From IMG/VR virus record IMGVR_UViG_3300022539_000234, positions 1 to 42,810 of that record: a DNA stretch of 42,810 bases; one strand, given 5' to 3'. The DNA comes from a virus. Of this stretch, positions 93 to 42,503 are shown piece by piece. Each line of letters opens with the position of its first letter. The first letter of the stretch is position 1. The notes under the pieces were generated by a model, which saw nothing but the letters and a program-made list of their open reading frames with translations, made no database searches and was not told the origin of the DNA. A program made the position numbers and the translations under genes.

Positions 93-368
93 ATGTTAGA
101 GCAATTGGTTCCGACCGCTGTTAGTACGGCAGCTCTTGGCTTAGTGTTTTGGGGCATACGAGCACAACGGGCAGAGATGATAAAAAAAGTTGATAAGATC
201 GAGGATAAATATCTCCCGGTAAAATACCATGAAAAGCTCGAAGAAATACAGCGGTTGAGCTTGAAGCTACTAATTACTGAGCAAATAGACGATCTGAAAA
301 ATGTTATTTTCCCGGAACTTAGAGCAATAAAGGATCGGTTACCACCTAATGCTAAAAACAAAGAATAA
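93..368 (+). CDS. Small membrane-anchored coiled-coil protein
   Basis: This 91-residue protein has one hydrophobic segment near residues 7-22 (VSTAALGLVFWGIRA), followed by a charged helical region that looks coiled-coil (residues 25-60). It sits between portal and capsid-assembly genes and starts three bases after the previous stop. The arrangement of one N-terminal membrane helix plus a helical tail would fit a small virion or membrane protein, and also some holin or spanin-like proteins, but no family is recognised. An identical copy lies at 39670-39945. Confidence 0.7.
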   Translation: MLEQLVPTAVSTAALGLVFWGIRAQRAEMIKKVDKIEDKYLPVKYHEKLEEIQRLSLKLLITEQIDDLKNVIFPELRAIKDRLPPNAKNKE

Positions 369-933
369 AATACCAGGCAAGCTCAGCTCAACCGTGCTTA
401 TAATGGGCGATGGACAGCGCTTACCCCAGGATATGCACCATTTTTTAGGTATTTGCTGTGGTCCTAAAAGTGAGGGTATCCGGCATGACGTTTTTGCGGT
501 TAACAGATCCATTAACTTTTATGGTAATTGTAGGCATTGGGGAACCGCCGACGGTGAGGAAGCGATATACCAGGCTGTTCAGCTCAGGTTACAACACCGA
601 TATCTTTTGCGTCATACCTTACTCCCGGAAATAGCTGGATTTGACATTTTTTGGGAGCCCGTAGATATCCCGGCGGAAGATTGGAGAGGCAATTCGGCCC
701 TGTTTGCGACTGAGGCTTGCCTGGGTATGGGATATAAGCGGATCGTGCTTGCTGGCTGCCCTATGAATCGTAGCGGGCATTGGTATGCTCCGTACTACTC
801 TGGACCGGAGTGGACCAATGAGGCTTATGAGCGTTGGGAAAGACTTGAAGAAACTAAACCGCCGATCAAATCAATGAGCGGTTGGACTAAAAAACTATTT
901 GGAGAACCTACAAAGGAATGGTTGAAATCGTAA
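349..933 (+). CDS. Rossmann-type GT42/DUF115-like protein, paralogue A
   Basis: This 194-residue protein begins with a beta strand and glycine turn (VLIMGDG), then a DVFAVNRS segment, a HWGTADG segment and a MGYKRIVLAGCP strand-turn motif followed by GHWY. The order (GxG-like first strand, D-x-hydrophobic-x-V-N, conserved D, then GY-x-x-I-x-L-x-G) is that of GT42 sialyltransferases and DUF115/Maf-type proteins, which transfer nonulosonic acids. Family membership is judged from pattern only. The gene at 1153 is a paralogue: both share an RIVLxGxPxxxxGHWY block and an SMSG...G-x-PT-x-(E/D)WL tail. The start has no good ribosome site; the first strand requires a start upstream of residue 16. A 20-base overlap with the 3' end of the previous gene suggests coupling. 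Confidence 0.8.
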   Translation: MLKTKNKIPGKLSSTVLIMGDGQRLPQDMHHFLGICCGPKSEGIRHDVFAVNRSINFYGNCRHWGTADGEEAIYQAVQLRLQHRYLLRHTLLPEIAGFDIFWEPVDIPAEDWRGNSALFATEACLGMGYKRIVLAGCPMNRSGHWYAPYYSGPEWTNEAYERWERLEETKPPIKSMSGWTKKLFGEPTKEWLKS

Positions 934-1166
934 AATTAAGAGACAAGAGCGGAACTATACAATTAACCGTGAAAGAAGCTCTTGAAAATGCACTGAACAG
1001 TAAATTTAAAGCCTGTTCTGTGGTCATAATATTACATTCCGAGAATGAAGATTCTCCGAGTTATGAATATTGGAACGGGGGCGGTCAAGAGCAGATGGAA
1101 ATGCTTTGGCATATAGAACAATTCAAAGCGGCATTATTAGAAGGAAGGCTTGATGAATATGGTTGA
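918..1166 (+). CDS. Hypothetical protein between the two paralogues
   Basis: This 82-residue protein has an AAAGGA site just before its ATG and overlaps the preceding gene by 16 bases and the next by 14, so translation is probably coupled across the trio. It begins with a beta-rich stretch (VEIVKLRDKSGTIQLTVKEA) and ends in an amphipathic helix. No family is recognised. Its tight placement between two paralogous transferase-like genes suggests it acts with them, but that is inference only. Confidence 0.75.
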   Translation: MVEIVKLRDKSGTIQLTVKEALENALNSKFKACSVVIILHSENEDSPSYEYWNGGGQEQMEMLWHIEQFKAALLEGRLDEYG

Positions 1167-1824
1167 AGAAAATCTGATACCAACGAAAATATTAACTGGG
1201 GACGACGTTTACGAGCGCGGTCCTGTCTTAAAGAACGATTTTAGGCATAACGATGTCTTAGCCATAGTGGCTGATGCGCCTTGTGTGTGGGACGACCTGG
1301 AAGCGTTCTGGAACGATTTTACGATACCTCACGACATCTTGTGCGTAAACGAGGTTGCAACGGTTTTTCCATGCAGCTTTCAGCACTTTGCGGCCGGTGA
1401 TTCGCACATGAAAGATATGCAGAAGGTTGCAAAGGAATTACCAAAGGAGGTGATAAAACACGCCTACAATCCCACGTCCAAGAATTTTGATGTACGCTGG
1501 ATCAGAAATGGCGGAGGATGGAGCGGAACGACAACATTTTTCGCGGTTAAGGTTGCCCTGGCTATGGATTACTTGCGAATTGTTCTAATAGGTTCGCCGC
1601 TTACGAATACCGGGCATTGGTATGATAAGCACATAGCCAACAAGGACGATCCGAGGCATTACCGCTTGATAAACCGCCACGAGGGTCATCTCTGGAAGTG
1701 GGTAGAGTTAGCGGCGCGCCCGATCGCCGACTTTATTAGATCTATGAGTGGAAATACGGCCGATATGTTAGGACGACCTACACAAGATTGGCTGGATGAT
1801 GTAAACTATTTCAAACACGCATGA
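1153..1824 (+). CDS. Rossmann-type GT42/DUF115-like protein, paralogue B
   Basis: This 223-residue protein has the same architecture as paralogue A: a first strand (VLAIVAD), an HDILCVNE segment, an FAAGDSHMKDM segment, then AMDYLRIVLIGSPL followed by GHWYD and an SMSG...GRPTQDWLDD tail. These positions match those of GT42/DUF115-like sugar transferases that bind CMP-nonulosonates. Function is inferred from pattern only. The chosen start is the ATG at 1153 because AAGGAAGG lies 4 bases upstream; a TTG one codon earlier is possible. An identical copy is at 40730-41401. Confidence 0.8.
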   Translation: MNMVEENLIPTKILTGDDVYERGPVLKNDFRHNDVLAIVADAPCVWDDLEAFWNDFTIPHDILCVNEVATVFPCSFQHFAAGDSHMKDMQKVAKELPKEVIKHAYNPTSKNFDVRWIRNGGGWSGTTTFFAVKVALAMDYLRIVLIGSPLTNTGHWYDKHIANKDDPRHYRLINRHEGHLWKWVELAARPIADFIRSMSGNTADMLGRPTQDWLDDVNYFKHA

Positions 1825-1837
1825 AAGGAGCGGAAAA

Positions 1838-2911
1838 ATGGCAGAAGAATTAGCAAAATCAGTGATAGAAGAAAAAATCGCCCAAGAGCCTGTAAAAGAG
1901 GCTGAACCCAAAGACAAGTACGCGGACATCGAGGTTGAGGACGCTTTTGATCCTATGGTGGACAGCGAGATTAAGCCACCAGCGGAGGAATTTATTGCCC
2001 CGGACAGCAAGGAACCAGAAGCGGACAAGAAGGAGCCTGAAACCAAGAAGCCCGATAAAGAAAAGGACAAGCCGGCGGACGAAAAGAAGGAAGTCAAGAA
2101 GGAGATCGAGCCTGAGCCTGGAAAAGAAGAAAAGTACAGCAAACGGGTCCAGAAGCGTATTGACAAATTGACTTACGATAAGAAATCCTCCGACGAACGA
2201 GCTGACGTCGCAGAGGCAGAACTCGAAAAGTTAAAGGAAGGCGCGGCCGAACCTGAACCCTCGGAAGCTCCGGCAACCGAGGAAGATAAAAAAGCGGCTG
2301 CGGACAGAGCTAAGTTGATCGACGATCATGTTAATAAGATCGCTCTCAAACAAGCGGGAGAAAAGCCGAAAGAAGCGGACTTCGACAACCTTGACGACTA
2401 CACGATCGCGCTGGCCGGATGGTCGGCCGACGTGAAACATTACGAGTTCAAGGCAAAGGAAGTCGTGGAAGCTAAACAGGAATCCTCGAGGAAAAAGGCC
2501 CTCGATTTCAAGTCCCGGATGGACAAGGGATTTGATTTATACGAGGACTTTGAGGACGTGGCTTTGACTCCGACGCTTGGAATTACAAACGCTATGGTAG
2601 CAGCCATGCAGGACATTGAGGAAGTACCCGAGCTTGTATATTATCTCGGAAAGCACCCAAAGGTAGTTGCCAAAATTGCCCGTATGGAACCTATTAGCAT
2701 GGCGGTTGAAATAGGCAAAATTGTTGCGAGGTTTACCGAGGATCCGGAGTCAAAACCCACGGAAACCCCGCTTAAAAATCCAAAAAAAACCATATCAAAA
2801 GCCCCTGAGCCCATTAGCGCCGTGAGCTCATCGACGTCGTCTAAAAAAGACCCAGAGAAAATGAGTCATGCCGAGTACAGAAAATGGCGAGAGGACGGAG
2901 GGGGCACATAG
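1838..2911 (+). CDS. Scaffold-like protein
   Basis: This 357-residue protein is extremely charged. Residues 1-120 are mostly Glu, Lys, Asp and Pro with low complexity; residues 120-300 are predicted helical; the C-terminus is basic and Ser-rich and ends in a KMSHAEYRKWRE segment. It lies directly before the coat gene, the position of the scaffolding protein (gp8, 303 residues) in P22. Composition and position support a scaffold that directs coat assembly and then leaves the head, probably with its C-terminal end contacting coat. A good site (AAAGGAGCGG) precedes the ATG. There is no sequence motif that proves it. Confidence 0.75.
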   Translation: MAEELAKSVIEEKIAQEPVKEAEPKDKYADIEVEDAFDPMVDSEIKPPAEEFIAPDSKEPEADKKEPETKKPDKEKDKPADEKKEVKKEIEPEPGKEEKYSKRVQKRIDKLTYDKKSSDERADVAEAELEKLKEGAAEPEPSEAPATEEDKKAAADRAKLIDDHVNKIALKQAGEKPKEADFDNLDDYTIALAGWSADVKHYEFKAKEVVEAKQESSRKKALDFKSRMDKGFDLYEDFEDVALTPTLGITNAMVAAMQDIEEVPELVYYLGKHPKVVAKIARMEPISMAVEIGKIVARFTEDPESKPTETPLKNPKKTISKAPEPISAVSSSTSSKKDPEKMSHAEYRKWREDGGGT

Positions 2912-2926
2912 AAAGGATAATTACTA

Positions 2927-4159
2927 ATGACTGTAACACTTTTAAATCCAACGATTATCGCAAAAGAGGCGTTGATGATGCTCGAAAACAACATGGTAAT
3001 GGGAGCTCACGTTCACCGGAAGTACAAAAGAGAGTTCAAAAAGGTGGGCGGTACCATAACCATTCGTAAGCCGGTCAAGTTTAAAGTGACCAAAGCCCGA
3101 ACAAGAACTCAATCGGGCGTAACCGAGCCGTCTATCACGCTTCAGGTGGCGACCCAAGCTCATGTTAGTTGGGATTTTACCACTGTTGATTTAACCTTAA
3201 CCATAGAGGAGTATTCGGAAAGATACATCAAACCGGCCGCAAATGTGCTGGCGAATACTGTCGATACCGACCTGACAGCCCTCTATGACGACGTTTATAA
3301 CAGCGTCGTAGAAAGTACGGGCGATGTAACCCCCCATAGCTTCATTGTTCTTGGGAAAGCCGGGCAAAGAATGGATGAGGAAGCGGTGCCACAAGACGAG
3401 CGCGTCCTTGTCCTTAACCCGGCCGCTAATTGGTCCTTAGCGAACGCACTCCGTACTGTTTACGTCAAGGAGATAGCAAAGCGGGCATTAGAGCGGGGCT
3501 ATCTCGCAACTATAGCCGGGTTTGATATTTACATGGATCAGAATATCTCAACCCATAAAACCGGAGATTACAGCACCACGACGGGAACTATCCAGGTGAC
3601 GGGTACCGGAACTCAAAACGGTACGTCTATTGTCATGGGCCAGTTTACCATCGTTTCATCCAAAGTGCTGAAAGTCGGGGATGTGTTCACGATCGCAGCC
3701 GTGTACGCGGTCAACCCCGTTTCCGGCCTTTCAACCGGCGAATTGCGGCAGTTTGTAGTAACCGCTGATGCTGATTGTTCAGCAACAGAAACCACGAGCG
3801 CGAATAACGTCACGGTCTTTATTAGCCCCGAGATCATTGATACCGGAGCTTACAAGAACGTCGACCAAGATCCCGCCGCTGGTGCAGTTGTGACCATAGT
3901 CGGCACAGCGGGCATTACCAGCCCGCAAAACCTTGCATTTCACAAAAACGCTTTCGCCCTCGTTACCGTTCCTCTGGATGTGCCTCACGGCGTATGGGGA
4001 GCCAGGGCGAGCAACAAAAAAACGGGTTTAAGCATCCGGGTATTGAAAGATTACGACGTCGACTCTGACGAGGAGATTTGTAGAATGGACATACTTTATG
4101 GTGTTAAAACCTTATACCCTGAGCTCGCTTGCAGGATGCGCGGGAAGGGTGTTGCCTAA
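2927..4159 (+). CDS. Major coat protein, P22 gp5-like
   Basis: This 410-residue protein is close to the length of P22 coat (430 residues). It has the typical opening of this family (short N-arm, EALMMLENN helix, then a beta-rich TITIRKPVKF segment) and the conserved EEYSERYIKPAANVLA helix at residues 94-109, followed by a VDTD motif. A Thr/Gly/Val-rich insertion at about residues 215-290 is probably the extra surface domain of P22-like coats. It forms the capsid shell and follows the scaffold gene. A variant allele of its first 102 codons is present at 42504-42810. Residues 96-120 resemble a segment of the Tat protein at 31506. Confidence 0.9.
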   Translation: MTVTLLNPTIIAKEALMMLENNMVMGAHVHRKYKREFKKVGGTITIRKPVKFKVTKARTRTQSGVTEPSITLQVATQAHVSWDFTTVDLTLTIEEYSERYIKPAANVLANTVDTDLTALYDDVYNSVVESTGDVTPHSFIVLGKAGQRMDEEAVPQDERVLVLNPAANWSLANALRTVYVKEIAKRALERGYLATIAGFDIYMDQNISTHKTGDYSTTTGTIQVTGTGTQNGTSIVMGQFTIVSSKVLKVGDVFTIAAVYAVNPVSGLSTGELRQFVVTADADCSATETTSANNVTVFISPEIIDTGAYKNVDQDPAAGAVVTIVGTAGITSPQNLAFHKNAFALVTVPLDVPHGVWGARASNKKTGLSIRVLKDYDVDSDEEICRMDILYGVKTLYPELACRMRGKGVA

Positions 4160-23996: not shown

Positions 23997-24230
23997 ATGA
24001 TTAAAAAATTGATATGTTTTATTTGGGGCCACAGTACCGTTCACAAAGCTTATACAGGCGAAAAGATGAATGTCGTCGGAGCATTGGGGAATAGCTACAC
24101 TATATCTTTGTATAAATATGAAACCACGCCATTTTGTACGCGGTGTGGCAATCCAGCTACCAAAAGGTGTCCTAATGAGAGTAACCGCGCTAATACCGGC
24201 AAGAAAGGGATCAAAGAGAATCCCGAATAA
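23997..24230 (+). CDS. Small protein with one zinc-knuckle-like Cys pair
   Basis: This 77-residue protein begins IKKLICFIWGHSTVHKAYTGEKM and has FCTRCGNPATKRC, with C-x-x-C plus a further Cys, a probable metal site. Proteins opening K-x-x-C-x-x-x-G-H are common among small phage proteins of unknown role. GAGGAGGAAAGAGC precedes the ATG. Its last 56 bases overlap the NeuA-like gene in another frame. Confidence 0.65.
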   Translation: MIKKLICFIWGHSTVHKAYTGEKMNVVGALGNSYTISLYKYETTPFCTRCGNPATKRCPNESNRANTGKKGIKENPE

Positions 24231-24933
24231 AAACATAATCGAAGTCGGCGGGCACCCGCTCATCTGGTACTCGATCGTAACCGCTCTTTCGTGCGAGCCC
24301 ATACAAGAGCCCGTGTATGTTTCAACAGACTCGCTCAAGATCGCGGCTTTCGCGGAAGATAGCGGCTGCGAGATTATTCAGCGGCCAAAGGAGTTAGCCC
24401 AGGACAACAGCACGGATTATGATTTTATTTTACATTTCCTCATGTCAATAGCTCCTTTTGAAAAGCTTCCGGATCTTCTCGTTATACTTCTCCCGACATC
24501 ACCGTTAAGATCGCTCAGTATTGTATCGGGCGCAATAAGCATTATGGTTAAAATTTTGGAGGGGACGGAAACCTGCCACAAGCCCACGTCTTTAAGATCC
24601 ATTGAGAAAATGTCAGAATCAGCATGGAAGTGCTTCGAGCTCGAGGCCGGGATTATGCTCAAGGGCCTAGGGAAAATAACCGTCGATCGCGCCGGGGAGC
24701 CTAACCAGACCTTTCCGCAAACCTACCGTCCAAACGGGTATGTCGATATCGTTAGGCCGGAGCTGGTAATCAGGGACCGCCGGGCATGGGGGAATCGGGT
24801 TTACGGCTATGTAACACCGAGGATCACCGAGCTTGACGAGCCCGAGGATCTTAAAAGGCTGCAATTTGATATAGCAACCAAGAGGGGGGAAGATGTTTTA
24901 TTCAGAAGTATGGGAAAAGGCCCAGGGCGCTAA
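24175..24933 (+). CDS. CMP-sugar (acylneuraminate) cytidylyltransferase, NeuA-like
   Basis: This 252-residue protein matches the NeuA/KdsB-type cytidylyltransferases: TALIPARKGSKRIPNKNI at residues 4-21 (CTP-binding P-loop-like motif R-x-G-S-K-R-x-x-x-K-N), LIWYSI, VYVSTDS, then LLPTSPLRS (about residues 105-113) and YRPNGYVDIVRP (about 184-195). It activates a nonulosonic acid with CTP to the CMP-sugar. The length fits the short bacterial form (Neisseria, 228 residues). The start at 24175 gives the canonical N-terminus; upstream codons read a different frame of the preceding gene. It overlaps the aminotransferase by 41 bases. Confidence 0.88.
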   Translation: MRVTALIPARKGSKRIPNKNIIEVGGHPLIWYSIVTALSCEPIQEPVYVSTDSLKIAAFAEDSGCEIIQRPKELAQDNSTDYDFILHFLMSIAPFEKLPDLLVILLPTSPLRSLSIVSGAISIMVKILEGTETCHKPTSLRSIEKMSESAWKCFELEAGIMLKGLGKITVDRAGEPNQTFPQTYRPNGYVDIVRPELVIRDRRAWGNRVYGYVTPRITELDEPEDLKRLQFDIATKRGEDVLFRSMGKGPGR

Positions 24934-25954
24934 AGTCTGGATCAAGGGTAAAGAGTATATTGATTTCACCAGCGGCGGTATCTTTTGCGCTAACCTGGGT
25001 AACAACAACCCAGCGGTAAGAAAGGCAATCGCCGACGTGCCGTTTATGAGCAGCTACCGATACGATACCAAGATCCGCCAGGAGTACAGGGAGAAACTTC
25101 TCGATGTGACCGGGTATGAGGATGTTGCTTTTTTTAGTGATGGCTCTATGGCTGTTGAGGCGGCGCTCAGGGTGATGGATTTGCGCTATACATGGGGAGA
25201 TACCAAGAAACTTTCAGGAACATTCCACGGAAAAACCAAAGGACCGCAAGGCTTAGAAGAAGTCAGGATTTCCGAAGGATGGGTACAGATCGGAGGCGGG
25301 AATAACTATATCGTCGAGGGGTACAGGGGGGAAGATGCTCATTTTTGGAGCCCGGAAATCATTAGCGAACTACGAGAGTCCCAAAAAGCCGGATCCTTGA
25401 TTTGTTTCGACGAAATTCAATCCTGCTTTGGACGGACCGGCAAGATGTTTGCTTATGAGCATTACGATATCAAGCCAGATCTTCTGATTATCGGCAAAGC
25501 CGCTGGTAACGGATTTCCGCTATCCGCTGTCTTGACTCGCTATAAGGAATTTTTTAATGGCGTTGATCTTTCCTGCACTCACGGCGGAAATCCTATGGCA
25601 ATGGCGGCGGGCCTGGCGACGATTGAGATATTTGAGAAGTTTAATTATATGTATCACCTATGTGTTGACGAGTATATGCTTCAAAAGCAGCTAAGGAGAA
25701 TGAGGGAAAAGTTAGCTTGCAAGGTCGGTGGTATCTGCCCGAAGGTGAACGGGCGGGGAATGGTTGCTGCCCTGATTTGCAAAGATGAGCTCGAAGCCGA
25801 TGAAATATATATCAGGGCTTTTAAAAAGGGATTATTACTTGTTCACACTGGTAAAAACACGGTTAAAATCGGTCCACCGCTTACAATCTCATGGCCGGAT
25901 CTCAACAAGGGGCTTAGAATCTTAGAGGAGGTATTACATGATATTCAAAATTAG
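24893..25954 (+). CDS. Class III (GSA-like) PLP aminotransferase
   Basis: This 353-residue protein has the fold-type I class III motifs: IDFTSGGIFCANLGNNNP near the N-terminus, FFSDGSMAVEAALRV (about residues 80-94), CFDEIQSCFGRTGKMFAYEH (171-190, with D173 binding the cofactor) and IIGKAAGNGFPLSAV (199-213, K202 the Schiff-base Lys). It lies between NeuA-like and VOC genes, overlapping both. Relatives beside NeuA/NeuB genes are thought to aminate the sugar or its aldehyde precursor. It is short against the usual 420-residue family. The substrate is not known. Confidence 0.85.
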   Translation: MFYSEVWEKAQGAKVWIKGKEYIDFTSGGIFCANLGNNNPAVRKAIADVPFMSSYRYDTKIRQEYREKLLDVTGYEDVAFFSDGSMAVEAALRVMDLRYTWGDTKKLSGTFHGKTKGPQGLEEVRISEGWVQIGGGNNYIVEGYRGEDAHFWSPEIISELRESQKAGSLICFDEIQSCFGRTGKMFAYEHYDIKPDLLIIGKAAGNGFPLSAVLTRYKEFFNGVDLSCTHGGNPMAMAAGLATIEIFEKFNYMYHLCVDEYMLQKQLRRMREKLACKVGGICPKVNGRGMVAALICKDELEADEIYIRAFKKGLLLVHTGKNTVKIGPPLTISWPDLNKGLRILEEVLHDIQN

Positions 25955-26276
25955 GCACGTTGGACTCAAGGTGAAGGATCTCGACAAGAGCATAAAGTTT
26001 TATCGCAACTTAGGCTTTTCTGTCATTTCAAGAGGAATCGAACATTGGGACTCGGGCCCGCCGATCGGTGTTTGCAAGCTCAAAACGATGGGCGGGGAAA
26101 TATTAGAGCTGATCGAGGCTGTCATTTGGCCGGAGAATCACTTTGCACTTACCGTGAATGATCTCTGGTCCGTGGATCACCTGAAAATATTGAAAGAGAA
26201 AAAGAGCATAAAGTATCATGTGATCTATGTAAAAGACTTGGATGGGCACTGGATAGAGCTAGTTCAAAAGAATTAA
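25938..26276 (+). CDS. VOC-family (glyoxalase fold) protein
   Basis: This 112-residue protein reads IRHVGLKVKDLDKSIKFYRNLGF, then LELIEA, and ends VIYVKDLDGHWIELVQ, the two beta-alpha-beta-beta-beta halves of the vicinal oxygen chelate fold. H7, a Glu near residue 56 and E108 could bind metal. In sugar clusters such proteins act as epimerases, isomerases or dioxygenases. It overlaps the aminotransferase by 17 bases with a GGAGGTATTAC site, so it is a true cassette member. Confidence 0.8.
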   Translation: MIFKIRHVGLKVKDLDKSIKFYRNLGFSVISRGIEHWDSGPPIGVCKLKTMGGEILELIEAVIWPENHFALTVNDLWSVDHLKILKEKKSIKYHVIYVKDLDGHWIELVQKN

Positions 26277-26292
26277 GAAATAAGAATAGCCA

Positions 26293-26826
26293 ATGAAATT
26301 AATAAAAGAATTGGATCGGCGAGGTTTTAAAAAGGGTAATAATAAAGCTAGATGGGCCGTGTTTGAGTGTCCGTATTGTCTCGTCTTTGTAGAGAAGCAA
26401 AAACCGAACGGAATAAGAGATAAAAGCTGTGGTTGTGCGAAGCTGTGGCTTATTAGCGAGACGAACACCGGCCGCACGTTTGTAATGGCTGAGGAAACTA
26501 AAAAGAAAATAGCTGTTTTTCATAAAGGAAGGCCGAAAAGCCAAGCGCATAGAAAAAATATATCAATATCAAAAATGGGGAGCAAAAATCCAACATGGAA
26601 AGGTGATGATGTTGGCTATGAAGCATTACACGATTGGGTAGCAAGGAGAAAGCCAAAGACAGAATTTTGCGAGCATTGCGGGAAAGCTCCTCCGTATGAT
26701 CTTGCAAATATTTCACAAGAATACAAGCGAGATGTGAACGATTTTGAATGGATTTGCAGAAAATGTCACATGATAAGTGATGGCAGAATGGAGATGATTA
26801 AAACAATAAATCTAAAGGAGGTTTAA
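26293..26826 (+). CDS. NUMOD3-containing HNH homing endonuclease
   Basis: This 177-residue protein has an N-terminal Cys pair region (CPYC...CGCAK), a NUMOD3-type DNA-binding motif (HKGRPKSQAHRKNIS, about residues 77-91), a WKGD motif, then a zinc-ribbon HNH-like part (CEHCGKAP...WICRKCH). It is AT-rich compared with its neighbours and has no clear ribosome site. It interrupts an otherwise overlapping string of sugar genes, which marks a selfish insertion between the VOC and NeuB-like genes. It cuts DNA to spread itself into endonuclease-free relatives. Confidence 0.82.
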   Translation: MKLIKELDRRGFKKGNNKARWAVFECPYCLVFVEKQKPNGIRDKSCGCAKLWLISETNTGRTFVMAEETKKKIAVFHKGRPKSQAHRKNISISKMGSKNPTWKGDDVGYEALHDWVARRKPKTEFCEHCGKAPPYDLANISQEYKRDVNDFEWICRKCHMISDGRMEMIKTINLKEV

Positions 26827-26829
26827 ACT

Positions 26830-27657
26830 ATGGCTTTTATAATCAGTGAGTTGGGTATAAATCACAATGGAGACCTTAGTCTCGCAAAAAAAATGATAAC
26901 AATGGCTAAGGGGTGCGGCGTGAGTGCAATCAAGCTGCAAAAGAGAACAATCGAAACAGTTTATACGAATAAATTCTTAAAATCACCAAGAGAATCTCCT
27001 TTCGGAAACGATCAAGAATCTCAAAAGCGAGCACTTGAATTTAGCAAAGACGATTACGACGCGATAAACGAGCATTGCGTAAAGCTCAACATCCCGTGGT
27101 TTGCCTCGGCCTGGGATCTCGAATCTCTTAAATTTTTAGATCAGTTTGACTTGAAATTTAACAAGATCGCTTCGCCCATGCTCACGAACGGGGGGATTTT
27201 GCTCCAAGTTGCAAATAGGAAAAAAATGACATTTATTTCAACGGGGATGAGCACAATTGAGGATATAGACGTGGCAGTTGAAATATTTATAAATGCCGAG
27301 TGCCCCTTCATAATCATGCATTGCGTGTCTGTTTACCCGTGCCCGGATCATCTTTTAAATTTAAGAACAATTCCATTTTTAAAAAATAAATATAAACGCA
27401 TGATTGGTTATTCAGGCCACGAGGTAGGTGTCATGCCGTCCGTTATGGCGGTTGTTTTGGGTGCACAGGTAGTTGAGAGGCATATTACGCTCGATCGAGC
27501 CATGTACGGCAGCGATCAGGCGGCGAGCTTGGAGCCACAGGGGCTAAAGCGCCTTGTTGAGTATATCCGGCAAGCCGAGCTTGCCCGTGGCGAGCAGGAC
27601 TTCATCGTGTGGCCCGAGGAGGAAGAAAATGCTAAAAAACTAAGATATTGGAATTAA
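26830..27657 (+). CDS. N-acetylneuraminate/nonulosonate synthase, NeuB-like
   Basis: This 275-residue protein carries the NeuB motifs: ISELGINHNGD (residues 5-15), AIKLQKRT (33-40), FNKIASP, FISTGMST, IMHCVSVYP, MIGYSGHEVG and ERHITLDRAMYGSDQAASLEP in the last quarter. NeuB joins an N-acyl-mannosamine-type sugar with phosphoenolpyruvate. Here L36 replaces the more usual Phe of KFQ, and the C-terminal SAF (antifreeze-like) domain that caps the partner active site in 346-residue NeuB is absent. The TIM barrel looks intact, so it may be active with altered substrate or need another cap. Confidence 0.88.
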   Translation: MAFIISELGINHNGDLSLAKKMITMAKGCGVSAIKLQKRTIETVYTNKFLKSPRESPFGNDQESQKRALEFSKDDYDAINEHCVKLNIPWFASAWDLESLKFLDQFDLKFNKIASPMLTNGGILLQVANRKKMTFISTGMSTIEDIDVAVEIFINAECPFIIMHCVSVYPCPDHLLNLRTIPFLKNKYKRMIGYSGHEVGVMPSVMAVVLGAQVVERHITLDRAMYGSDQAASLEPQGLKRLVEYIRQAELARGEQDFIVWPEEEENAKKLRYWN

Positions 27658-27774: not shown

Positions 27775-28008
27775 ATGGCAGAAAGAATCATAAGCCCGAT
27801 GGAGTCGATCACCATCCGGGCCAGGCAGCCGGATAAGCTCAAAAAGGGGCCCGTGGCGATCGAGATCGCCCTTACTATTGACAAAAAATATGTGCAGTTG
27901 CTTTTCCCGGACCGCCTGGAACCAATGGAGGGTATGATGTTCACGGGGAAAGAGGCCATGAGAATAGGAGATCTATTCCACGAAAAAGCAAGGTTGGTGA
28001 TAGAATGA
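27775..28008 (+). CDS. Hypothetical protein, beta-rich
   Basis: This 77-residue protein is beta-rich in its first half (ITIRARQPDKLKKGPVAIEIALTID) and ends in a helix, with a KGPVAIEI strand. It overlaps the methyltransferase gene by ATGA and follows an AGGGAGATTAAATT site. No family is recognised. Confidence 0.7.
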   Translation: MAERIISPMESITIRARQPDKLKKGPVAIEIALTIDKKYVQLLFPDRLEPMEGMMFTGKEAMRIGDLFHEKARLVIE

Positions 28009-28703
28009 AAACATTTAGCGGAAATAATGGGGAAAGGCTCTATCTCGAAACGGCAAAGTTCTATTCTGAATCGCAGAGAGATGGTGTCACGGTTTTAAAG
28101 ACTGAAACCGAGGGGCTTGAAAACTTGGTCGCCCGTCACAAAGCGCGGTACGGCCTGGTTGCTCTTTTTTGTAGACCCTGGCTTAAGGTACTCGACTTCC
28201 CATGCGGCAGCGGGTATGCAAGCAAGCTATTGGGGGAGTATGGCGTTTTCTATGAGGGCCGGGATTACGACTCGGTTACGATAGAGTATGCCAACAGTAT
28301 TTATCGCAGATCTATTTTTTATAAAGATCGTTTCGGCAACCTTCCCCGGTTTATCCTGGACGATTTACGCTGGTCGAATTTACCAGACGAGGCTTACGAC
28401 GTTATCGCTTTTATCGAGGGGATCGAGCATATCGAGCAGAAATACCAAGCGGGAGCGATTAAAGCTCTTGAGAAGGCCTTGAAGCCAGGGGGAGTTTTAA
28501 TCGTGAGCTCTCCCGAAGCACCAGGAGGGAAATCAGGTCCAAGCAAAATGAATAAACACCACCTTTGGGAATTAACCAAGTATGATTTTGTCCCTTGGTT
28601 AACATATATAAGCAATTTTAATAAAATCGAGCTGATTACGCAGATCGACAAACTACATACTGGCGAAACAACTAATTGTTTTTATGCGGTGTGCAGGAAA
28701 TAG
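28005..28703 (+). CDS. Class I SAM-dependent methyltransferase
   Basis: This 232-residue protein has the SAM motif I VLDFPCGSGYAS (about residues 62-73), an acidic motif II position (GRDYDS), YDVIAFIEGIEHI (motif IV) and LKPGGVLIVSSPE (motif VI). It belongs to the Methyltransf_11/25 type that commonly modifies sugars or small molecules. It overlaps its upstream neighbour (ATGA) and is the last gene before a hairpin. In this setting a role in methylating the cassette sugar is plausible, but a protein or nucleic acid target cannot be ruled out. Confidence 0.82.
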   Translation: MKTFSGNNGERLYLETAKFYSESQRDGVTVLKTETEGLENLVARHKARYGLVALFCRPWLKVLDFPCGSGYASKLLGEYGVFYEGRDYDSVTIEYANSIYRRSIFYKDRFGNLPRFILDDLRWSNLPDEAYDVIAFIEGIEHIEQKYQAGAIKALEKALKPGGVLIVSSPEAPGGKSGPSKMNKHHLWELTKYDFVPWLTYISNFNKIELITQIDKLHTGETTNCFYAVCRK

Positions 28704-28932: not shown

Positions 28933-29433
28933 ATGAGCAAATTAGATTTAAGAAATGAAAGATTTGGAAGACTTATTGTCATTGGCGATTCGGGATTCAG
29001 GTTTGGGAATCAAAAAGCTGTAGCATGGTTGTGTCTTTGTGATTGCGGGAGGGTGAGAAAAATAATAACCGGCGATTTAAGACAAAACAGAACGAAAAGC
29101 TGTGGCTGTTTGAACAGGGAATTATCTGCAAAAAGATGGTTTAAACATGGTGAAGGAAAAACAAAATTGTATCGGTTGTGGCGAGGTATAAAAACACGAT
29201 GCTTAGACAAGGGAAGTCATGCTTATCATAGATACGGCGGAAGGGGAATTAAAATATGTAAAGATTGGCTTGACTTTATACTTTTTAAAAAGTGGGCTTT
29301 AAAAAGCGGCTACAAAGAAGGTTTAAGCATCGACAGAAAAGATAATAACGGCAATTATGAGCCAAAAAATTGTCAATGGCTAACATTAAGAGAAAACAGC
29401 CTTAAATGGTGGCAAATGGATAGATTATTATGA
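28933..29433 (+). CDS. HNH/AP2-like homing endonuclease
   Basis: This 166-residue protein has an N-terminal zinc-ribbon-like part (CLCDCG...KSCGC, about residues 36-64) and a C-terminal LYRLWRGIKTRC...HRYGGRGIKICKDW segment, then LSIDRKDNNGNYEPKNCQW. This YRLW-x-x-I-x-x-RC...GGRGI...W..F...ID-R-x-D-N-x-G-x-Y-x-x-x-NC-x-W pattern is a well-known phage HNH endonuclease type. Its stop overlaps the radical SAM start (ATGA), so the element sits directly before, and is coupled to, that gene. It is AT-richer than its neighbours. Confidence 0.82.
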   Translation: MSKLDLRNERFGRLIVIGDSGFRFGNQKAVAWLCLCDCGRVRKIITGDLRQNRTKSCGCLNRELSAKRWFKHGEGKTKLYRLWRGIKTRCLDKGSHAYHRYGGRGIKICKDWLDFILFKKWALKSGYKEGLSIDRKDNNGNYEPKNCQWLTLRENSLKWWQMDRLL

Positions 29434-30848
29434 AAATATTATTTATTGTTTATTGCAATGGAAGTCACCTACCGATCTTCCCGCAAAACATAGCCTATCT
29501 CGTGTCAGCTTGTAAAGCAGCCGGGCACCAGGCCGACGTTTATTTGCAGGATATTCATCATTTCCCGGACTCTCACATTACGCAGTTTTTGGATGAGAGC
29601 GAATACGATGTTGTAGGCCTGGGATTTGTCGCGGGGTATTATCAGTATCGAAAGGCGATAGATATCGCCCAGGCAGTGAACGAGTCGAAAAGGCGGGGCG
29701 ATTTCATATTCGTCCTGGGCGGGCACGGCCCGAGCGCGGCGCCGGAGTATTTTCGGGAGATCCTAAAGGCGGATCTTGTTGTTATTGGAGAAGGGGAGAG
29801 GTTTTTTGGAGAACCGGAGTTTACCGTATTGCCAGATGAGAAAAAAAACGCTGAGCTCCTAACGGTTTCGAATTGCGTGTCGAGCGATCTTAACTTTGGC
29901 GTAATAGACGACGTTGATCGTATTCATTGGCCGGCATACGAAGATTTCCCGATCGAAATTTATCGCCTGTCTCAATTTCCGACATCGAAAGAAACCGATT
30001 TCTGTATGCCGATCCTCTCAGGCCGCGGCTGCTTGTGGAAATGCACGTTTTGTTATCGCATGGTCCCGGGCTTTCGTCCGAGGGATCCTTGGGCCGTGAT
30101 TGACGAAATGAGCTATTTACAAAAAGAATGGCAGATAAACCACTTTAATTTTTCAGACGAGCTTTTTATGAGCTCAAAAGAAAGGATCCATCTGTTTTGT
30201 GAGGCGCTTATTAAGGCAAGAATGGATCCTATACCTTGGGCGGAGACAAAGCTAAAACCGTTCAAGTGGGATTGCAGTGGGAGGCTAAACTTTGCAAAAC
30301 CGAAAGAGCTTGAACTTATGAAGCGGGCCGGGTGTGAGTATGTGAATTACGGTATCGAGTCGCTAAATGATAATGTCTTAATGAAAATGAAAAAGGGCCT
30401 GTCTGTCCAAACAATAACGGAAGGGATTAAAGCGACTCTCGAAGCCGGTCTCACACCTGGCCTTAACTTTATGTGGGGCAATATTGGCGATAACGAGGAA
30501 ACCTTGGACGAAATGGTGAGCTTTTTACTAGCTCATGATCGCTGTATGGAGCTGAGAACGATTCGGCCCGTTACTCCATACCCTGGTTCGCCTCTTTTTG
30601 ATTATGCGGTTGAAAACGGATATCTCGAAGGCGTAGAGGATTTTTACGAGAATAAGCATATCAACTCGGATCTGCTCACCTGTAATTTTACGGATATTCC
30701 GGATGAGAGATTTCATCATCTGTTATTTACGGCAAATGCTATGCTTATTAACAACTATACAGGAGAGGTGCGAGCTCAGAATTTAGCGAGAGCTCGCAAG
30801 CTGTATGACATGAAAGATAAAACATTCCGGGGCTTTCGGCCAATATGA
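29430..30848 (+). CDS. B12-binding-domain radical SAM enzyme
   Basis: This 472-residue protein has an N-terminal Rossmann-like cobalamin-binding region (residues 1-130; YDVVGLGFVAGY, FVLGGHGPSAAPE, VVIGEGE) and a radical SAM barrel with GRGCLWKCTFCYR, giving C201, C205 and C208 in the C-x3-C-x2-C pattern. YVNYGIESLND and PVTPYPGSPLFD are further family motifs. Members carry out methylations and ring or carbon rearrangements with SAM and cobalamin. The typical cobalamin ligand D-x-H-x-x-G is not clear. Placed after the sugar cassette; the substrate is not known. Confidence 0.87.
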   Translation: MKILFIVYCNGSHLPIFPQNIAYLVSACKAAGHQADVYLQDIHHFPDSHITQFLDESEYDVVGLGFVAGYYQYRKAIDIAQAVNESKRRGDFIFVLGGHGPSAAPEYFREILKADLVVIGEGERFFGEPEFTVLPDEKKNAELLTVSNCVSSDLNFGVIDDVDRIHWPAYEDFPIEIYRLSQFPTSKETDFCMPILSGRGCLWKCTFCYRMVPGFRPRDPWAVIDEMSYLQKEWQINHFNFSDELFMSSKERIHLFCEALIKARMDPIPWAETKLKPFKWDCSGRLNFAKPKELELMKRAGCEYVNYGIESLNDNVLMKMKKGLSVQTITEGIKATLEAGLTPGLNFMWGNIGDNEETLDEMVSFLLAHDRCMELRTIRPVTPYPGSPLFDYAVENGYLEGVEDFYENKHINSDLLTCNFTDIPDERFHHLLFTANAMLINNYTGEVRAQNLARARKLYDMKDKTFRGFRPI

Positions 30849-31087
30849 AATTGATAAAAAATATTATACACAAGCTCAAAAGGTGGTGGCTTGCAAGGCC
30901 GGTTCTTTTTATTGATTGCGATTATTATCTTTTAGCTTATCAGTGGCGCGACGGCATTATTGAGTGTATCCAAGAGGGTAATTTGGGGCCGTGGGAATAT
31001 GTCAAAGTTCCAAAAAATACAATGGTTTATTATGACAGAGGGAGATACTTAGTAAAAACCAGCCGGAAAGTAGGGTTAATAAAATAA
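30845..31087 (+). CDS. Hypothetical basic protein
   Basis: This 80-residue protein starts with a basic stretch (KLIKNIIHKLKRWWLARP) and is then beta-rich with many Tyr (CDYYLLAYQWRDG, YYDRGRYLVKTSRK). It overlaps the radical SAM gene (ATGA) and the Tat-signal gene (TAATG), so it is translated with them. No family is recognised. Confidence 0.65.
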   Translation: MKLIKNIIHKLKRWWLARPVLFIDCDYYLLAYQWRDGIIECIQEGNLGPWEYVKVPKNTMVYYDRGRYLVKTSRKVGLIK

Positions 31088-31503: not shown

Positions 31504-31505
31504 TT

Positions 31506-32999: not shown

Positions 33000-33833
33000 A
33001 TGTTAAACGGATTAAGCGGAATAAATATTGAGCTCACGTCCAGGTGCAACAAGGATCCTGGTTGCTGGATGTGCGGCCGGAGAAAGATCGAAAAGGAATA
33101 CCCCGAGCTCGTAAATTGGGGGGATATGCCTATCGAGATGGTCCTGCAAATAGCCAAGCAGATCCCAAGAGGAGTATTCGTTCAGCTACATTGGAATGGC
33201 GAGCCGCTCCTATACCCGGACTTGGGCTCAGCGATACGTTACTTTTCTCATTGTTACACCGGTTTAGACACGAATGGCAAGTTGCTTGTAGAAAAGAAGG
33301 ACGAGCTTAGCTTACTTGATACGCTCACGATCTCGGTTATCCAGGATGATCCCGAGGGTGCTGAACAGCTTGAGATCATAGACGAGTATCTTTTACAGAC
33401 TAAATTACCATCGATTGTAATATTTCGCGTGCTTGGGAATATCGGCATAAATAGAGAAATGATCCTGAATGATTTTACCCTTGAATTTAAGGGTGTTAAT
33501 ATAGCAAGGCGTGTCCTTCACTCTCCCAACGGTTCACACGACTACGAAAAGCCAGTCACGATCCCGGAAACCGGAGTATGCCAGGAAATGCTCCACAAGC
33601 TGAGCATAGACCGATTCGGAAACGTGAGCCCATGCGTCAGGTTTGATCCGCATGGTAAAAATAGATTAGGGATAGTCAGTAATATTTCGTCAAAAGATCC
33701 CTTCTTGACCACCCTGAACGATATCTGGTGTTCGGGTGAAAGGCAGAGTTGGGTGCAAGCCCATCTTGAGGGCCGCAGGAGCGACGTGCCGTTGTGCGCT
33801 GAGTGTCATTATTGGGGGATACCGAGGGGGTGA
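33000..33833 (+). CDS. Radical SAM/SPASM enzyme with C-x5-C-x2-C cluster motif
   Basis: This 277-residue protein opens INIELTSRCNKDPGCWMCGR, with C16, C22 and C25, a C-x5-C-x2-C spacing instead of the usual C-x3-C-x2-C. LHWNGEPLLYPDL is the GGE-like SAM motif. The C-terminal half has SPASM-like Cys (VCQEML, VSPCVRF, IWC, PLCAECHYWG) for a second iron-sulfur cluster. SPASM enzymes modify peptides, sugars or proteins. The ATG at 33000 follows AAGGAGGATAA. It is 2.1 kb from the B12-type enzyme and shares its transcript direction. Confidence 0.85.
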   Translation: MLNGLSGINIELTSRCNKDPGCWMCGRRKIEKEYPELVNWGDMPIEMVLQIAKQIPRGVFVQLHWNGEPLLYPDLGSAIRYFSHCYTGLDTNGKLLVEKKDELSLLDTLTISVIQDDPEGAEQLEIIDEYLLQTKLPSIVIFRVLGNIGINREMILNDFTLEFKGVNIARRVLHSPNGSHDYEKPVTIPETGVCQEMLHKLSIDRFGNVSPCVRFDPHGKNRLGIVSNISSKDPFLTTLNDIWCSGERQSWVQAHLEGRRSDVPLCAECHYWGIPRG

Positions 33834-37300: not shown

Positions 37301-39247
37301 ATGGAAATTAAAGCAGAAAAGCCAGGAACGATTGAAATTAAAGCCGACCACAAATCAAACGCAGATCTATTGAAATTAGCCCAGGAGCGGTACACGTCAG
37401 CGGTTGAGGCTCACGAGACTAACCGGAATAATTCAATCGAGGATCTTGAGTTTATCGAGGGCGGACATCAGTGGCCGGAAGAATTAAGTGGCCCAAGAGA
37501 TATAGCTGGGCAACCATGCCTCGAAATTAACAAGCTCCCTGGGTATCTCGATCAACTCGTAGGAGAACAAAGGCAGAACCGGCCGGCGATCAAGGTTGTT
37601 CCCTTCGATTCGGAGTCGGATCCCGAAACAGCGGAGATTTTCACAGGGCTTATTCGTAATATCGAATATGTATCTATGGCAAGGGTGGCCTACGATCACG
37701 CTTTTGAACACGCCGCGGCTTGCGGAGAGGGCTTTTTCCAGATACTTACCGAGTACGCCGAGGATGATATCTTCGAGCAAAATATAATAGTCAAGCCGAT
37801 CCTGAACTCCTCGACCGTTCATTGGGATCCGAGTGCCGAGGATGTCACGCTTAAAGATGCTGATTGGTTTTTCGTAGAGACGAAAATAAAGCGACACGAC
37901 TTCGAGAAGAAACACCCAAATAGTGCGCTTGTAGGATGGAATGACACCGAAGATTACGACGTAGAATGGGTGACAAAGGACGAGATCAAAGTTGCCGCAT
38001 ACTGGCTAAAGGTCCCGATCGAAAAAATGATTTACCAGGTGTTAAACAATGACGGCAGCACAAAGATAGTTGAGAAGCTCGAAGAAGGCCAGGAATCCGT
38101 AAAGGAGCGACTCGTAAAGACCCATAAGGTTGTGAGGTATCTCATCACGAGCCACGATGTATTAGAGGGCCCGAGCGACTTTGCTTCAAAGTATATTCCG
38201 ATTGTTCCGGTATGGGGTAAAGAGCTGAACGTAAACGGCCGAAGGGTGCTCCGGGGTATAGTACGACACGCTAAAGATCCCCAAAGGATTTATAACTATT
38301 CAAGATCGCACGGCGTAGAGATCACGAGCTTACAGCCCAAAAGTCCGTTCTTAGCCACACCCAAGCAGCTTGAGGGCCACGAAAAACAATGGAACAGGGC
38401 TAATAAAGAAAACTATGTTTACCTGTATTACAATCCTGATCCAGAAGCGGCCGACACGAAACCTACGAGGCAGCCACCGCCACAGGCCAGTTCAGCGATT
38501 CAACAAGAGATCATTATAGCAGATCAGGAGATTGACGATACAACGGGATTGTACGAGGCAAGCCGGGGCCAAAGATCGAACGAGAAATCCGGCAAGGCGA
38601 TACTCGCGAGGCAGGCTAAGGGATCTATAGCGAATTTCGCTTATATGGATAACCTGGCGCGATCGAAGATCCACGCTGGTAAAATCTATATTGATTTAAT
38701 TCAGAATGTTTACGACACCGAGCGGATCGTGCGGATTATGAACGAAGACGAAACCACTCAGCATATTACCATTAATTCCTATGATGAAAAGGAAAGCAAG
38801 CCGCTCAATGATATCACTATCGGTAAATATGACGCCATAGTCACGATAGGCCCATCGTATGTCACGCAGAGAGAGGAAGCGAGCGACAGCATGATGGCGT
38901 TTATCACAGCTTACCCAGCCGCAGCACCCATTATCGGCGATCTTATTGCTAAGAATCAGAACTGGCAGGGCGCCGACAAAATAGCCGAGAGACTCAAGAA
39001 ACTTTTACCGCCTGGCATAGCAGACGAGGAAGATAAAGACAAGTCCACCCCAGGGAGCGGCCCAGCCCAGCCGGGTCAACCTCCGCCCGGTCAAGCCGCT
39101 CCCCCCGCCCCTGAGCAGATACAGGCTGGTATTGAAATTAAAATATTACAGGTGAAATTAGAACAGGAAAAGGCGGATTTAAAGAAAAAGCAAGTTCAAG
39201 TCCAGGTAGAACAGAAGAAATTAAGTATGGAAGGAGGTGGGTTTTAA
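37301..39247 (+). CDS. Portal protein, P22 gp1-like
   Basis: This 648-residue protein (P22 portal 725) has the P22-portal signature: NSIEDLEFIEGGHQWPEE at about residues 44-61, PCLEINKLPGYLDQLVGEQRQNRPAI (about 70-95) and CGEGFFQI. The middle has HWDPSAEDVTLKDADWFFVE. The C-terminal 70 residues are Pro/Gln-rich then coiled-coil (the barrel). It forms the dodecameric DNA channel at one head vertex. Confidence 0.92.
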   Translation: MEIKAEKPGTIEIKADHKSNADLLKLAQERYTSAVEAHETNRNNSIEDLEFIEGGHQWPEELSGPRDIAGQPCLEINKLPGYLDQLVGEQRQNRPAIKVVPFDSESDPETAEIFTGLIRNIEYVSMARVAYDHAFEHAAACGEGFFQILTEYAEDDIFEQNIIVKPILNSSTVHWDPSAEDVTLKDADWFFVETKIKRHDFEKKHPNSALVGWNDTEDYDVEWVTKDEIKVAAYWLKVPIEKMIYQVLNNDGSTKIVEKLEEGQESVKERLVKTHKVVRYLITSHDVLEGPSDFASKYIPIVPVWGKELNVNGRRVLRGIVRHAKDPQRIYNYSRSHGVEITSLQPKSPFLATPKQLEGHEKQWNRANKENYVYLYYNPDPEAADTKPTRQPPPQASSAIQQEIIIADQEIDDTTGLYEASRGQRSNEKSGKAILARQAKGSIANFAYMDNLARSKIHAGKIYIDLIQNVYDTERIVRIMNEDETTQHITINSYDEKESKPLNDITIGKYDAIVTIGPSYVTQREEASDSMMAFITAYPAAAPIIGDLIAKNQNWQGADKIAERLKKLLPPGIADEEDKDKSTPGSGPAQPGQPPPGQAAPPAPEQIQAGIEIKILQVKLEQEKADLKKKQVQVQVEQKKLSMEGGGF

Positions 39248-39666: not shown

Positions 39667-39669
39667 ATT

Positions 39670-39945
39670 ATGTTAGAGCAATTGGTTCCGACCGCTGTTA
39701 GTACGGCAGCTCTTGGCTTAGTGTTTTGGGGCATACGAGCACAACGGGCAGAGATGATAAAAAAAGTTGATAAGATCGAGGATAAATATCTCCCGGTAAA
39801 ATACCATGAAAAGCTCGAAGAAATACAGCGGTTGAGCTTGAAGCTACTAATTACTGAGCAAATAGACGATCTGAAAAATGTTATTTTCCCGGAACTTAGA
39901 GCAATAAAGGATCGGTTACCACCTAATGCTAAAAACAAAGAATAA
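39670..39945 (+). CDS. Second copy of membrane coiled-coil protein (93-368)
   Basis: The gene is identical to the one at 93-368 and describes the same locus if the genome is circular. See that entry. Confidence 0.7.
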   Translation: MLEQLVPTAVSTAALGLVFWGIRAQRAEMIKKVDKIEDKYLPVKYHEKLEEIQRLSLKLLITEQIDDLKNVIFPELRAIKDRLPPNAKNKE

Positions 39946-40510
39946 AATACCAGGCAAGCTCAGCTCAACCGTGCTTATAATGGGCGATGGACAGCGCTTA
40001 CCCCAGGATATGCACCATTTTTTAGGTATTTGCTGTGGTCCTAAAAGTGAGGGTATCCGGCATGACGTTTTTGCGGTTAACAGATCCATTAACTTTTATG
40101 GTAATTGTAGGCATTGGGGAACCGCCGACGGTGAGGAAGCGATATACCAGGCTGTTCAGCTCAGGTTACAACACCGATATCTTTTGCGTCATACCTTACT
40201 CCCGGAAATAGCTGGATTTGACATTTTTTGGGAGCCCGTAGATATCCCGGCGGAAGATTGGAGAGGCAATTCGGCCCTGTTTGCGACTGAGGCTTGCCTG
40301 GGTATGGGATATAAGCGGATCGTGCTTGCTGGCTGCCCTATGAATCGTAGCGGGCATTGGTATGCTCCGTACTACTCTGGACCGGAGTGGACCAATGAGG
40401 CTTATGAGCGTTGGGAAAGACTTGAAGAAACTAAACCGCCGATCAAATCAATGAGCGGTTGGACTAAAAAACTATTTGGAGAACCTACAAAGGAATGGTT
40501 GAAATCGTAA
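39926..40510 (+). CDS. Second copy of GT42/DUF115-like paralogue A
   Basis: The gene is identical to the one at 349-933. In the assembled circle it is the same gene. See that entry. Confidence 0.8.
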   Translation: MLKTKNKIPGKLSSTVLIMGDGQRLPQDMHHFLGICCGPKSEGIRHDVFAVNRSINFYGNCRHWGTADGEEAIYQAVQLRLQHRYLLRHTLLPEIAGFDIFWEPVDIPAEDWRGNSALFATEACLGMGYKRIVLAGCPMNRSGHWYAPYYSGPEWTNEAYERWERLEETKPPIKSMSGWTKKLFGEPTKEWLKS

Positions 40511-40743
40511 AATTAAGAGACAAGAGCGGAACTATACAATTAACCGTGAAAGAAGCTCTTGAAAATGCACTGAACAGTAAATTTAAAGCCTGTTCTGTGG
40601 TCATAATATTACATTCCGAGAATGAAGATTCTCCGAGTTATGAATATTGGAACGGGGGCGGTCAAGAGCAGATGGAAATGCTTTGGCATATAGAACAATT
40701 CAAAGCGGCATTATTAGAAGGAAGGCTTGATGAATATGGTTGA
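40495..40743 (+). CDS. Second copy of hypothetical protein (918-1166)
   Basis: The gene is identical to the one at 918-1166 and is the same locus in a circular map. Confidence 0.75.
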   Translation: MVEIVKLRDKSGTIQLTVKEALENALNSKFKACSVVIILHSENEDSPSYEYWNGGGQEQMEMLWHIEQFKAALLEGRLDEYG

Positions 40744-41401
40744 AGAAAATCTGATACCAACGAAAATATTAACTGGGGACGACGTTTACGAGCGCGGTCC
40801 TGTCTTAAAGAACGATTTTAGGCATAACGATGTCTTAGCCATAGTGGCTGATGCGCCTTGTGTGTGGGACGACCTGGAAGCGTTCTGGAACGATTTTACG
40901 ATACCTCACGACATCTTGTGCGTAAACGAGGTTGCAACGGTTTTTCCATGCAGCTTTCAGCACTTTGCGGCCGGTGATTCGCACATGAAAGATATGCAGA
41001 AGGTTGCAAAGGAATTACCAAAGGAGGTGATAAAACACGCCTACAATCCCACGTCCAAGAATTTTGATGTACGCTGGATCAGAAATGGCGGAGGATGGAG
41101 CGGAACGACAACATTTTTCGCGGTTAAGGTTGCCCTGGCTATGGATTACTTGCGAATTGTTCTAATAGGTTCGCCGCTTACGAATACCGGGCATTGGTAT
41201 GATAAGCACATAGCCAACAAGGACGATCCGAGGCATTACCGCTTGATAAACCGCCACGAGGGTCATCTCTGGAAGTGGGTAGAGTTAGCGGCGCGCCCGA
41301 TCGCCGACTTTATTAGATCTATGAGTGGAAATACGGCCGATATGTTAGGACGACCTACACAAGATTGGCTGGATGATGTAAACTATTTCAAACACGCATG
41401 A
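40730..41401 (+). CDS. Second copy of GT42/DUF115-like paralogue B
   Basis: The gene is identical to the one at 1153-1824 and is the same locus in a circular map. Confidence 0.8.
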   Translation: MNMVEENLIPTKILTGDDVYERGPVLKNDFRHNDVLAIVADAPCVWDDLEAFWNDFTIPHDILCVNEVATVFPCSFQHFAAGDSHMKDMQKVAKELPKEVIKHAYNPTSKNFDVRWIRNGGGWSGTTTFFAVKVALAMDYLRIVLIGSPLTNTGHWYDKHIANKDDPRHYRLINRHEGHLWKWVELAARPIADFIRSMSGNTADMLGRPTQDWLDDVNYFKHA

Positions 41402-41414
41402 AAGGAGCGGAAAA

Positions 41415-42488: not shown

Positions 42489-42503
42489 AAAGGATAATTA
42501 CTA

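Follow-up and report, generated by a model that had tools for sequence, protein, structure and literature searches.

Glycosyltransferases of family GT42 are inverting CMP-sialic acid transferases, with His188 serving as the general base in CstII (PMC4202792). A GT29 relative in plants has been proposed to use CMP-Kdo (PMC11288761), and the superfold around which these enzymes are built would therefore accept both donors. Phage-encoded transferases can also act on the virion itself, with the capsid and tail tube subunits of mycobacteriophage being glycosylated in this manner (Freeman 2023, as cited in PMC12619734). Here we describe a P22-like phage lineage that carries a pair of predicted transferases in its capsid gene block, together with genes for the synthesis and activation of a sugar; this arrangement suggests that the lineage coats its own virions with sugar.

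The window, by which we mean the whole stretch of 42,810 nucleotides that was analysed, comes from an uncultured P22-like phage. Its first 3233 bases recur at 39578-42810, and it is thus read as a circular or circularly permuted genome with a unit of 39,577 bp; owing to this terminal repeat, the two genes under study, ORF-A and ORF-B, appear twice in the contig but once in the genome. The repeat ends are identical for 3 kb except at 15 differing positions (3030-3197 against 42607-42774, at the start of the coat gene), so that the assembly probably merged two variants. The genes concerned are the following:

349..933, + strand: ORF-A, 194 aa, predicted single-domain CMP-ulosonate transferase (fold, tree, motifs)
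918..1166, + strand: 82-aa ORF of unassigned function, running from the end of ORF-A into the start of ORF-B with overlap on both sides (ORF list)
1153..1824, + strand: ORF-B, 223-224 aa, predicted single-domain CMP-ulosonate transferase (fold, tree, motifs)
1838..2911, + strand: scaffold-like acidic protein (position and composition; clade homologs in the equivalent position)
2927..4159, + strand: P22-type coat protein (PF11651, 2e-58)
37301..39247, + strand: P22-type portal (PF16510, 1e-180)
39926..40510, + strand: second copy of ORF-A, the same gene (terminal repeat)
40730..41401, + strand: second copy of ORF-B, the same gene (terminal repeat)

The original prediction had placed two genes, starting at 349 and 1153, between portal and scaffold, and these coordinates are confirmed; ORF-B starts with ATG at 1153, and an in-frame TTG lies at 1150. 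A small ORF at 93-368 overlaps the start of ORF-A, and the 82-aa ORF, which shows no conservation in the compared relatives, bridges ORF-A and ORF-B, the whole forming an overlapping gene string that resembles, by its layout, one of co-translated genes. A TarS-linker match to the 93-368 ORF and a NinE match, both from the Pfam and PHROG scans, were discarded as noise.

ORF-A and ORF-B are paralogs, as had been claimed from the sequence, sharing 33% identity over ~150 residues (E 7e-17) and falling into sister clades (support 0.92). The P22-like ORF-B homologs make up one clade (17/17, support 0.99) and the ORF-A homologs another (support 0.99), with three third copies inside the latter; from the separation of the two clades it follows that the duplication is old and has been kept. 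Third copies of the ORF-A type lie near the tail genes of three P22-like relatives (L007:7247-7981, L011:20277-20654 and L019:19847-20302). The motifs on which the transferase prediction was based are present as quoted, with DVFAVN at 47-52 and YKRIVLAG at 129-136 in ORF-A, and DILCVN at 62-67 and YLRIVLIG at 141-148 in ORF-B, the second of each pair being the Y-x-RIVLxG block. Candidate active-site residues are conserved within each clade: N67, H79, D84, H104, H177 and H180 are invariant in 17/17 members of the ORF-B clade, in which D49 and RSMSGNT are invariant or nearly so, and H63, D68, H89 and H144 are invariant in 12/12 members of the ORF-A clade, as is D28, with Gly taking the N52 position in 11/12 and the ORF-A of the window keeping Asn. 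Many polar residues are invariant though the members are only 45-55% identical.

The pair belongs to a large and unnamed family, and neither ORF-A nor ORF-B, searched singly against Pfam and PHROG, has a usable match. With a viral scan by ORF-B alone returning zero relatives, the family was recovered only by a motif-based alignment scan, in which a search of IMG/VR with [IV][RK]SMSG[NW]T gave 131 related places, 80 of them being kept for analysis, and iterated profiles gave 119 matches in 81 loci (107 distinct). The family signature is [VI]-R-S-M-S-G-x-T, and the first-loop Gly and Asp, G-[ST]-S, R-I-V-L-x-G-x-P, W163/W184, G-x-P and W191/W214 are likewise conserved. As for the Asp and Asn that were predicted to be conserved, the former stands, occupying the D28/D49 position in 91% of the family, and the latter holds in part (Asn in 66% at N52/N67, Gly in 30%). 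Since 105-119 ORFs were recovered, with the Asp at this frequency and G-x-P and SMSGxT nearly invariant, the family is not a product of chance. We found no description of it in the open-access literature, a scope outside which most subscription papers lie. An ORF-A relative occurs in one of 50,697 phage records, and a scan of bacterial genomes with a 4-member alignment as query yielded eight loci (alphaproteobacterial genomes, and deltaproteobacterial and verrucomicrobial MAGs), the family gene adjoining phage head genes in those that were mapped. Fused forms exist too: L024:4491-5705 joins the family domain to a C-terminal glycosyltransferase (phrog_1962, 1e-16) and adjoins KdsB, and L073:7169-10261 encodes a 1030-aa protein that combines the family domain with a methyltransferase domain and with a conserved domain of unknown function (phrog_6804).

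The fold of both proteins was predicted with confidence by AlphaFold (AF2), with pLDDT 94.4 and pTM 0.91 for ORF-A, and pLDDT 89.3 and pTM 0.88 for ORF-B. Foldseek against the PDB placed CstII (GT42) first for ORF-B (E 0.01, prob 0.98, TM 0.46-0.50), the first 14 places being held mostly by CstI/CstII, ST3Gal1 and ST8SiaIII, with SteA and archaeal MptE among the rest; for ORF-A, ST3Gal1 (GT29) headed the list (prob 0.80), and thiamine pyrophosphokinase came in fourth place (prob 0.87). The E-values of the best PDB matches are just 0.01-0.04, at TM ~0.45-0.50, and a single superfold spans CstII, ST3Gal1, MptE, thiamine pyrophosphokinase and SteA, so that pyrophosphokinases are included in it. 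Matches among viral models were to phage proteins, some uncharacterised (E 5e-9) and some MptE-like, and to a GT29 of mimivirus. A transferase-type structure had been anticipated, and the comparison agrees in giving sialyltransferases as the best matches and no unrelated non-transferase fold.

Sequence profiles lead to the same superfamily. Single-sequence phmmer against the PDB gave noise only, and neither ORF-A nor ORF-B reached the curated models PF06002 and PF01973 or any PHROG; a 76-member profile run against all PDB chains (E up to 10) found nine chains, all of them GT42 (E 0.05-0.3). Scanned singly, 15 of the 76 members weakly matched PHROG 4603, 'alpha-2,3-sialyltransferase' (best 2e-4), eight touched the MptE-like PF01973 (best 0.012, below the curated cut-off), and one touched CST-I (PF06002), at 0.064. 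A bridge is provided by profile A7, made up of remote family-profile matches (E 1e-7 to 1e-3) in the NeuB-bearing phages L130, L137, L173 and L177, the members of which match PHROG 4603 down to 9e-25 and PF01973 with up to 25.3 bits (cut-off 34.6). As a profile, A7 aligns along almost its whole length with GT42 (5e-7) and also matches PDB chain 5mu5, which we take to be Maf, at 0.0014, and hhalign of the family profile A2 with A7 gave a probability of 97.9% (E 5e-13) against 1.3% for a NeuB profile and 0.7% for a cytidylyltransferase profile used as controls. The placement of ORF-A and ORF-B in the sialyltransferase/Maf/MptE superfamily is thus well supported, although they lie below every curated threshold. 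The earlier assignment to GT42 and DUF115/Maf survives as regards the superfold but not as regards curated membership in GT42, MptE/Maf or a PHROG, and we rejected filing the family under GT42, Maf or PHROG 4603, because the matches fall short of the thresholds and the family as a whole does not conserve the catalytic His of GT42; the name GT42 conveys kinship and a likely mode of action here rather than membership.

A donor for such transferases could be made by a module encoded in the same genome:

24175..24933, + strand: NeuA/PseF-like cytidylyltransferase, predicted maker of the CMP-sugar donor (PF02348, 4e-18; TIGR03584 PseF, 3e-23, below cut-off)
24893..25954, + strand: class III aminotransferase, second gene of the module (PF00202, 1e-50; conserved place in the clade)
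25938..26276, + strand: glyoxalase/VOC-like protein (PF00903, 1e-7; L161 and L094 have similar proteins in this position)
26830..27657, + strand: NeuB-type nonulosonate synthase (PF03102, 9e-68; TIGR03569, 7e-71, below cut-off)
28005..28703, + strand: SAM methyltransferase, possibly a module gene (PF13489, 8e-12; weak kin in L091 and L094)
29430..30848, + strand: B12-binding radical SAM protein (accompanies NeuB in the clade, and likewise in the unrelated L137/L159)
33000..33833, + strand: another radical SAM protein that the module conserves (clade conservation)

The NeuA- and NeuB-like genes expected at 24175-27657 are therefore real. In the P22-like clade, the gene order runs NeuA, class III aminotransferase, (glyoxalase), NeuB, B12 radical SAM, radical SAM, methyltransferase, terminase (TerL), portal, ORF-A, ORF-B, scaffold, coat, as taken from the window, L091, L094, L098, L102 and L161, with single genes being missing or cut off in some. 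Linkage to the donor genes is strict in this clade: NeuB is found in 6/6 P22-like contigs that carry the pair and reach the region, usually together with NeuA and the aminotransferase, and a seventh, L096, starts inside the B12 radical SAM gene. Outside the clade, three loci have a CMP-sugar synthetase immediately following the family gene (KdsB over curated cut-offs in L024 and L039, PseF-like in L083), and in L137/L159, which are of a different phage type, NeuA, NeuB and B12 radical SAM lie upstream and a remote family gene follows shortly after the likely capsid gene. The co-occurrence proposed at the outset is accordingly observed both within the clade and beyond it. Three CMP-sugar synthetases and three NeuB genes were counted in 79 family loci and none of either in 120 random loci; conversely, a family-profile match was present in 12/80 NeuB-bearing viral loci and 0/120 random ones (10/68 against 0/100 once near-duplicates were removed, p 8e-5), the random loci being drawn by random 15-mer, the counts ignoring shared ancestry and many contigs being fragments.

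NeuB relatives are present in only 3/50,697 phage records. In a reverse control, isolates with a P22-type coat number 94 records, the best matches being ~35% identical, and in two of these isolates, Xanthomonas phage PBR31 and Shewanella phage X14, the portal is followed directly by the scaffold. In most records that bear a family gene, neither NeuB nor a CMP-sugar synthetase is seen, and such phages would therefore need a host donor such as CMP-Kdo. Gram-negative hosts make CMP-Kdo, and we predict that these phages could use it. That the donor class is a CMP-activated nonulosonate or Kdo is fairly secure.

The module has several features of its own. Between NeuA and NeuB, at 24893-26276, the class III aminotransferase and the glyoxalase-like protein replace the usual NeuC or PseB/PseC, a layout that possibly represents an undescribed nonulosonate route. 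B12 radical SAM follows NeuB, often with the second radical SAM protein, in the window, L091, L094, L098, L102, L161, L137 and L159, and this neighbourhood suggests an unusual, perhaps C-methylated, ulosonate. A weak homing-endonuclease-like ORF (26293-26826) sits between the glyoxalase and NeuB of the window, and an ORF at L098:410-778 opens with a copy of the NeuB N-terminus followed by HNH-like sequence. Tat-signal-like starts (RRxFLK) are seen in the small ORFs 31087-31503 and 31476-31805, and at L096:2135-2434, a start of this kind runs on into part of the coat protein N-terminus.

The family keeps a constant place among virion genes. It is near the major capsid gene in L083, L001 and Paracoccus phage vB_PkoS_Pkon1 (in Pkon1, the record of which shows neither NeuB nor a CMP-sugar synthetase, it is gene p38, immediately after that gene), before a portal-like gene in L065, before head-morphogenesis-like genes in L028, L071, L068 and L032, and between tail-completion genes and the likely major tail protein, in glycan islands, in L024, L046 and L077, the structural gene names in metagenomic loci being partly read from sequence and position. 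The islands contain GT2, DegT aminotransferase, hexapeptide acetyltransferase and methyltransferase genes; glycan islands with a family gene occur in the tail blocks of L046, L077, L024, L061 and L307, most of them directly before the likely major tail protein. This placement favours virion proteins as the target, with the host surface as the rival, and the acceptor is most likely coat, portal or tail.

Taken together, these observations lead us to favour, with some reservation, the reading that ORF-A and ORF-B are CMP-activated nonulosonate or Kdo transferases acting on virion proteins. The aminotransferase and accessory enzymes would prepare a sugar precursor, NeuB would condense it with phosphoenolpyruvate, and the NeuA-like enzyme would activate the resulting nonulosonate with CTP. 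ORF-A and ORF-B, presumably translated together with portal, scaffold and coat in the late phase of infection, would then move the acidic 3-deoxy-ulosonate (a nonulosonate in this phage and Kdo in some relatives) from its CMP form onto the assembling coat, portal or tail protein, with one of them perhaps initiating on protein and the other extending. In ORF-B, the helix after the G-x-P loop carries H177 and H180, and in CstII His188 falls in this same stretch of the chain, a correspondence of chain position rather than of superposed structures. The ORF-A clade has no His in this region, so that in ORF-A another residue must serve, or the protein works differently.

The same enzymes and donor might instead act on the LPS core or O-antigen of the host, altering the receptor and blocking superinfection or re-adsorption. 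Ulosonates are normal in Gram-negative LPS, surface modification is a known trait of P22-like phages, and the bacterial family genes (in alphaproteobacterial contigs and in deltaproteobacterial and verrucomicrobial MAGs) adjoin phage head genes; against this, the genes lie inside the capsid string and not beside lysogeny genes, the proteins are small, soluble-looking single domains, and unrelated phages likewise carry the family among head or tail genes, which makes a host-surface acceptor unlikely. Less likely still is a small-molecule enzyme of the MptE/thiamine pyrophosphokinase branch that moves diphosphate instead of sugar. The ORF-A match to thiamine pyrophosphokinase, the ORF-B match to archaeal MptE (prob 0.72-0.75) and the members touching PF01973 would suit it, but the adjacency of KdsB/NeuA and the linkage to NeuB, GT42 being the only PDB sequence-profile match, and neighbours that are glycan rather than pterin or thiamine genes all speak for a sugar.

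That the family consists of catalytically dead superfold domains, retained in the head for a structural or binding role, is a reading to which we give little weight: it would account for the lack of a family-wide GT42 catalytic His and for Gly replacing N52/N67 in 30%, but neither the invariance of so many polar residues at such low identity nor the strict linkage to a donor pathway is what it would lead one to expect. Glycosylation of phage DNA or nucleotides appears the most improbable of all, for although phages use diverse glycosyltransferases on DNA (literature as cited in PMC12619734), these genes are placed with capsid genes, and the annotated part of the window revealed no gene recognisable as one for hypermodified-base synthesis. 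CMP-ulosonate donors are, to our knowledge, not known for DNA.

If the transfer of nonulosonate or Kdo to virion proteins is correct, a large unannotated family across the head and tail blocks of environmental phages gains a function, and phage particles bearing acidic sialic-acid-type sugars become a testable idea, with a bearing on phage adsorption, particle stability and immune recognition. We put forward tentatively, as possible rather than probable, a broader generalisation in which widespread compact nonulosonate/Kdo transferases, acting directly on protein, decorate virions with a sialic-acid-like sugar, the donor pathway being complete, reduced to KdsB/NeuA or replaced by host CMP-Kdo, and the P22-like pair splitting initiation and extension. 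The predicted use of host CMP-Kdo by members without their own synthetase is testable in the isolate Pkon1.

Compared with known systems, the family shares with GT42 (CstI/CstII, PF06002) its predicted fold and an alignable N-terminal glycine loop, DVF-x-x-N strand and TSG...GYxxIxLxG helix-strand; it differs in lying below the curated cut-off, in the length of ORF-A and ORF-B (194-224 aa), in its phage capsid location, in having G-x-P for G-I-D and the extra RSMSGxT motif, and in having no family-wide His188. With the Maf flagellin nonulosonate transferases and MptE-like proteins (PF01973), it has in common the superfold, the linkage to CMP-nonulosonate synthesis and a probable protein target, whereas ORF-A and ORF-B are single-domain proteins, the models of which leave no room for the Maf flanking domains, there is no flagellin, and the matches stay below the PF01973 cut-off. 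PHROG 4603 includes remote family members from NeuB-bearing phages (those matching down to 9e-25), yet ORF-A and ORF-B do not match it directly, and the best of the 76 members reaches 2e-4. The virion glycosylation of mycobacteriophage relies, as far as we know, on other glycosyltransferase folds and on no phage-encoded ulosonate pathway. What the present locus shares with phage virion glycosylation systems is the presence of a predicted transferase gene inside a block of structural genes.
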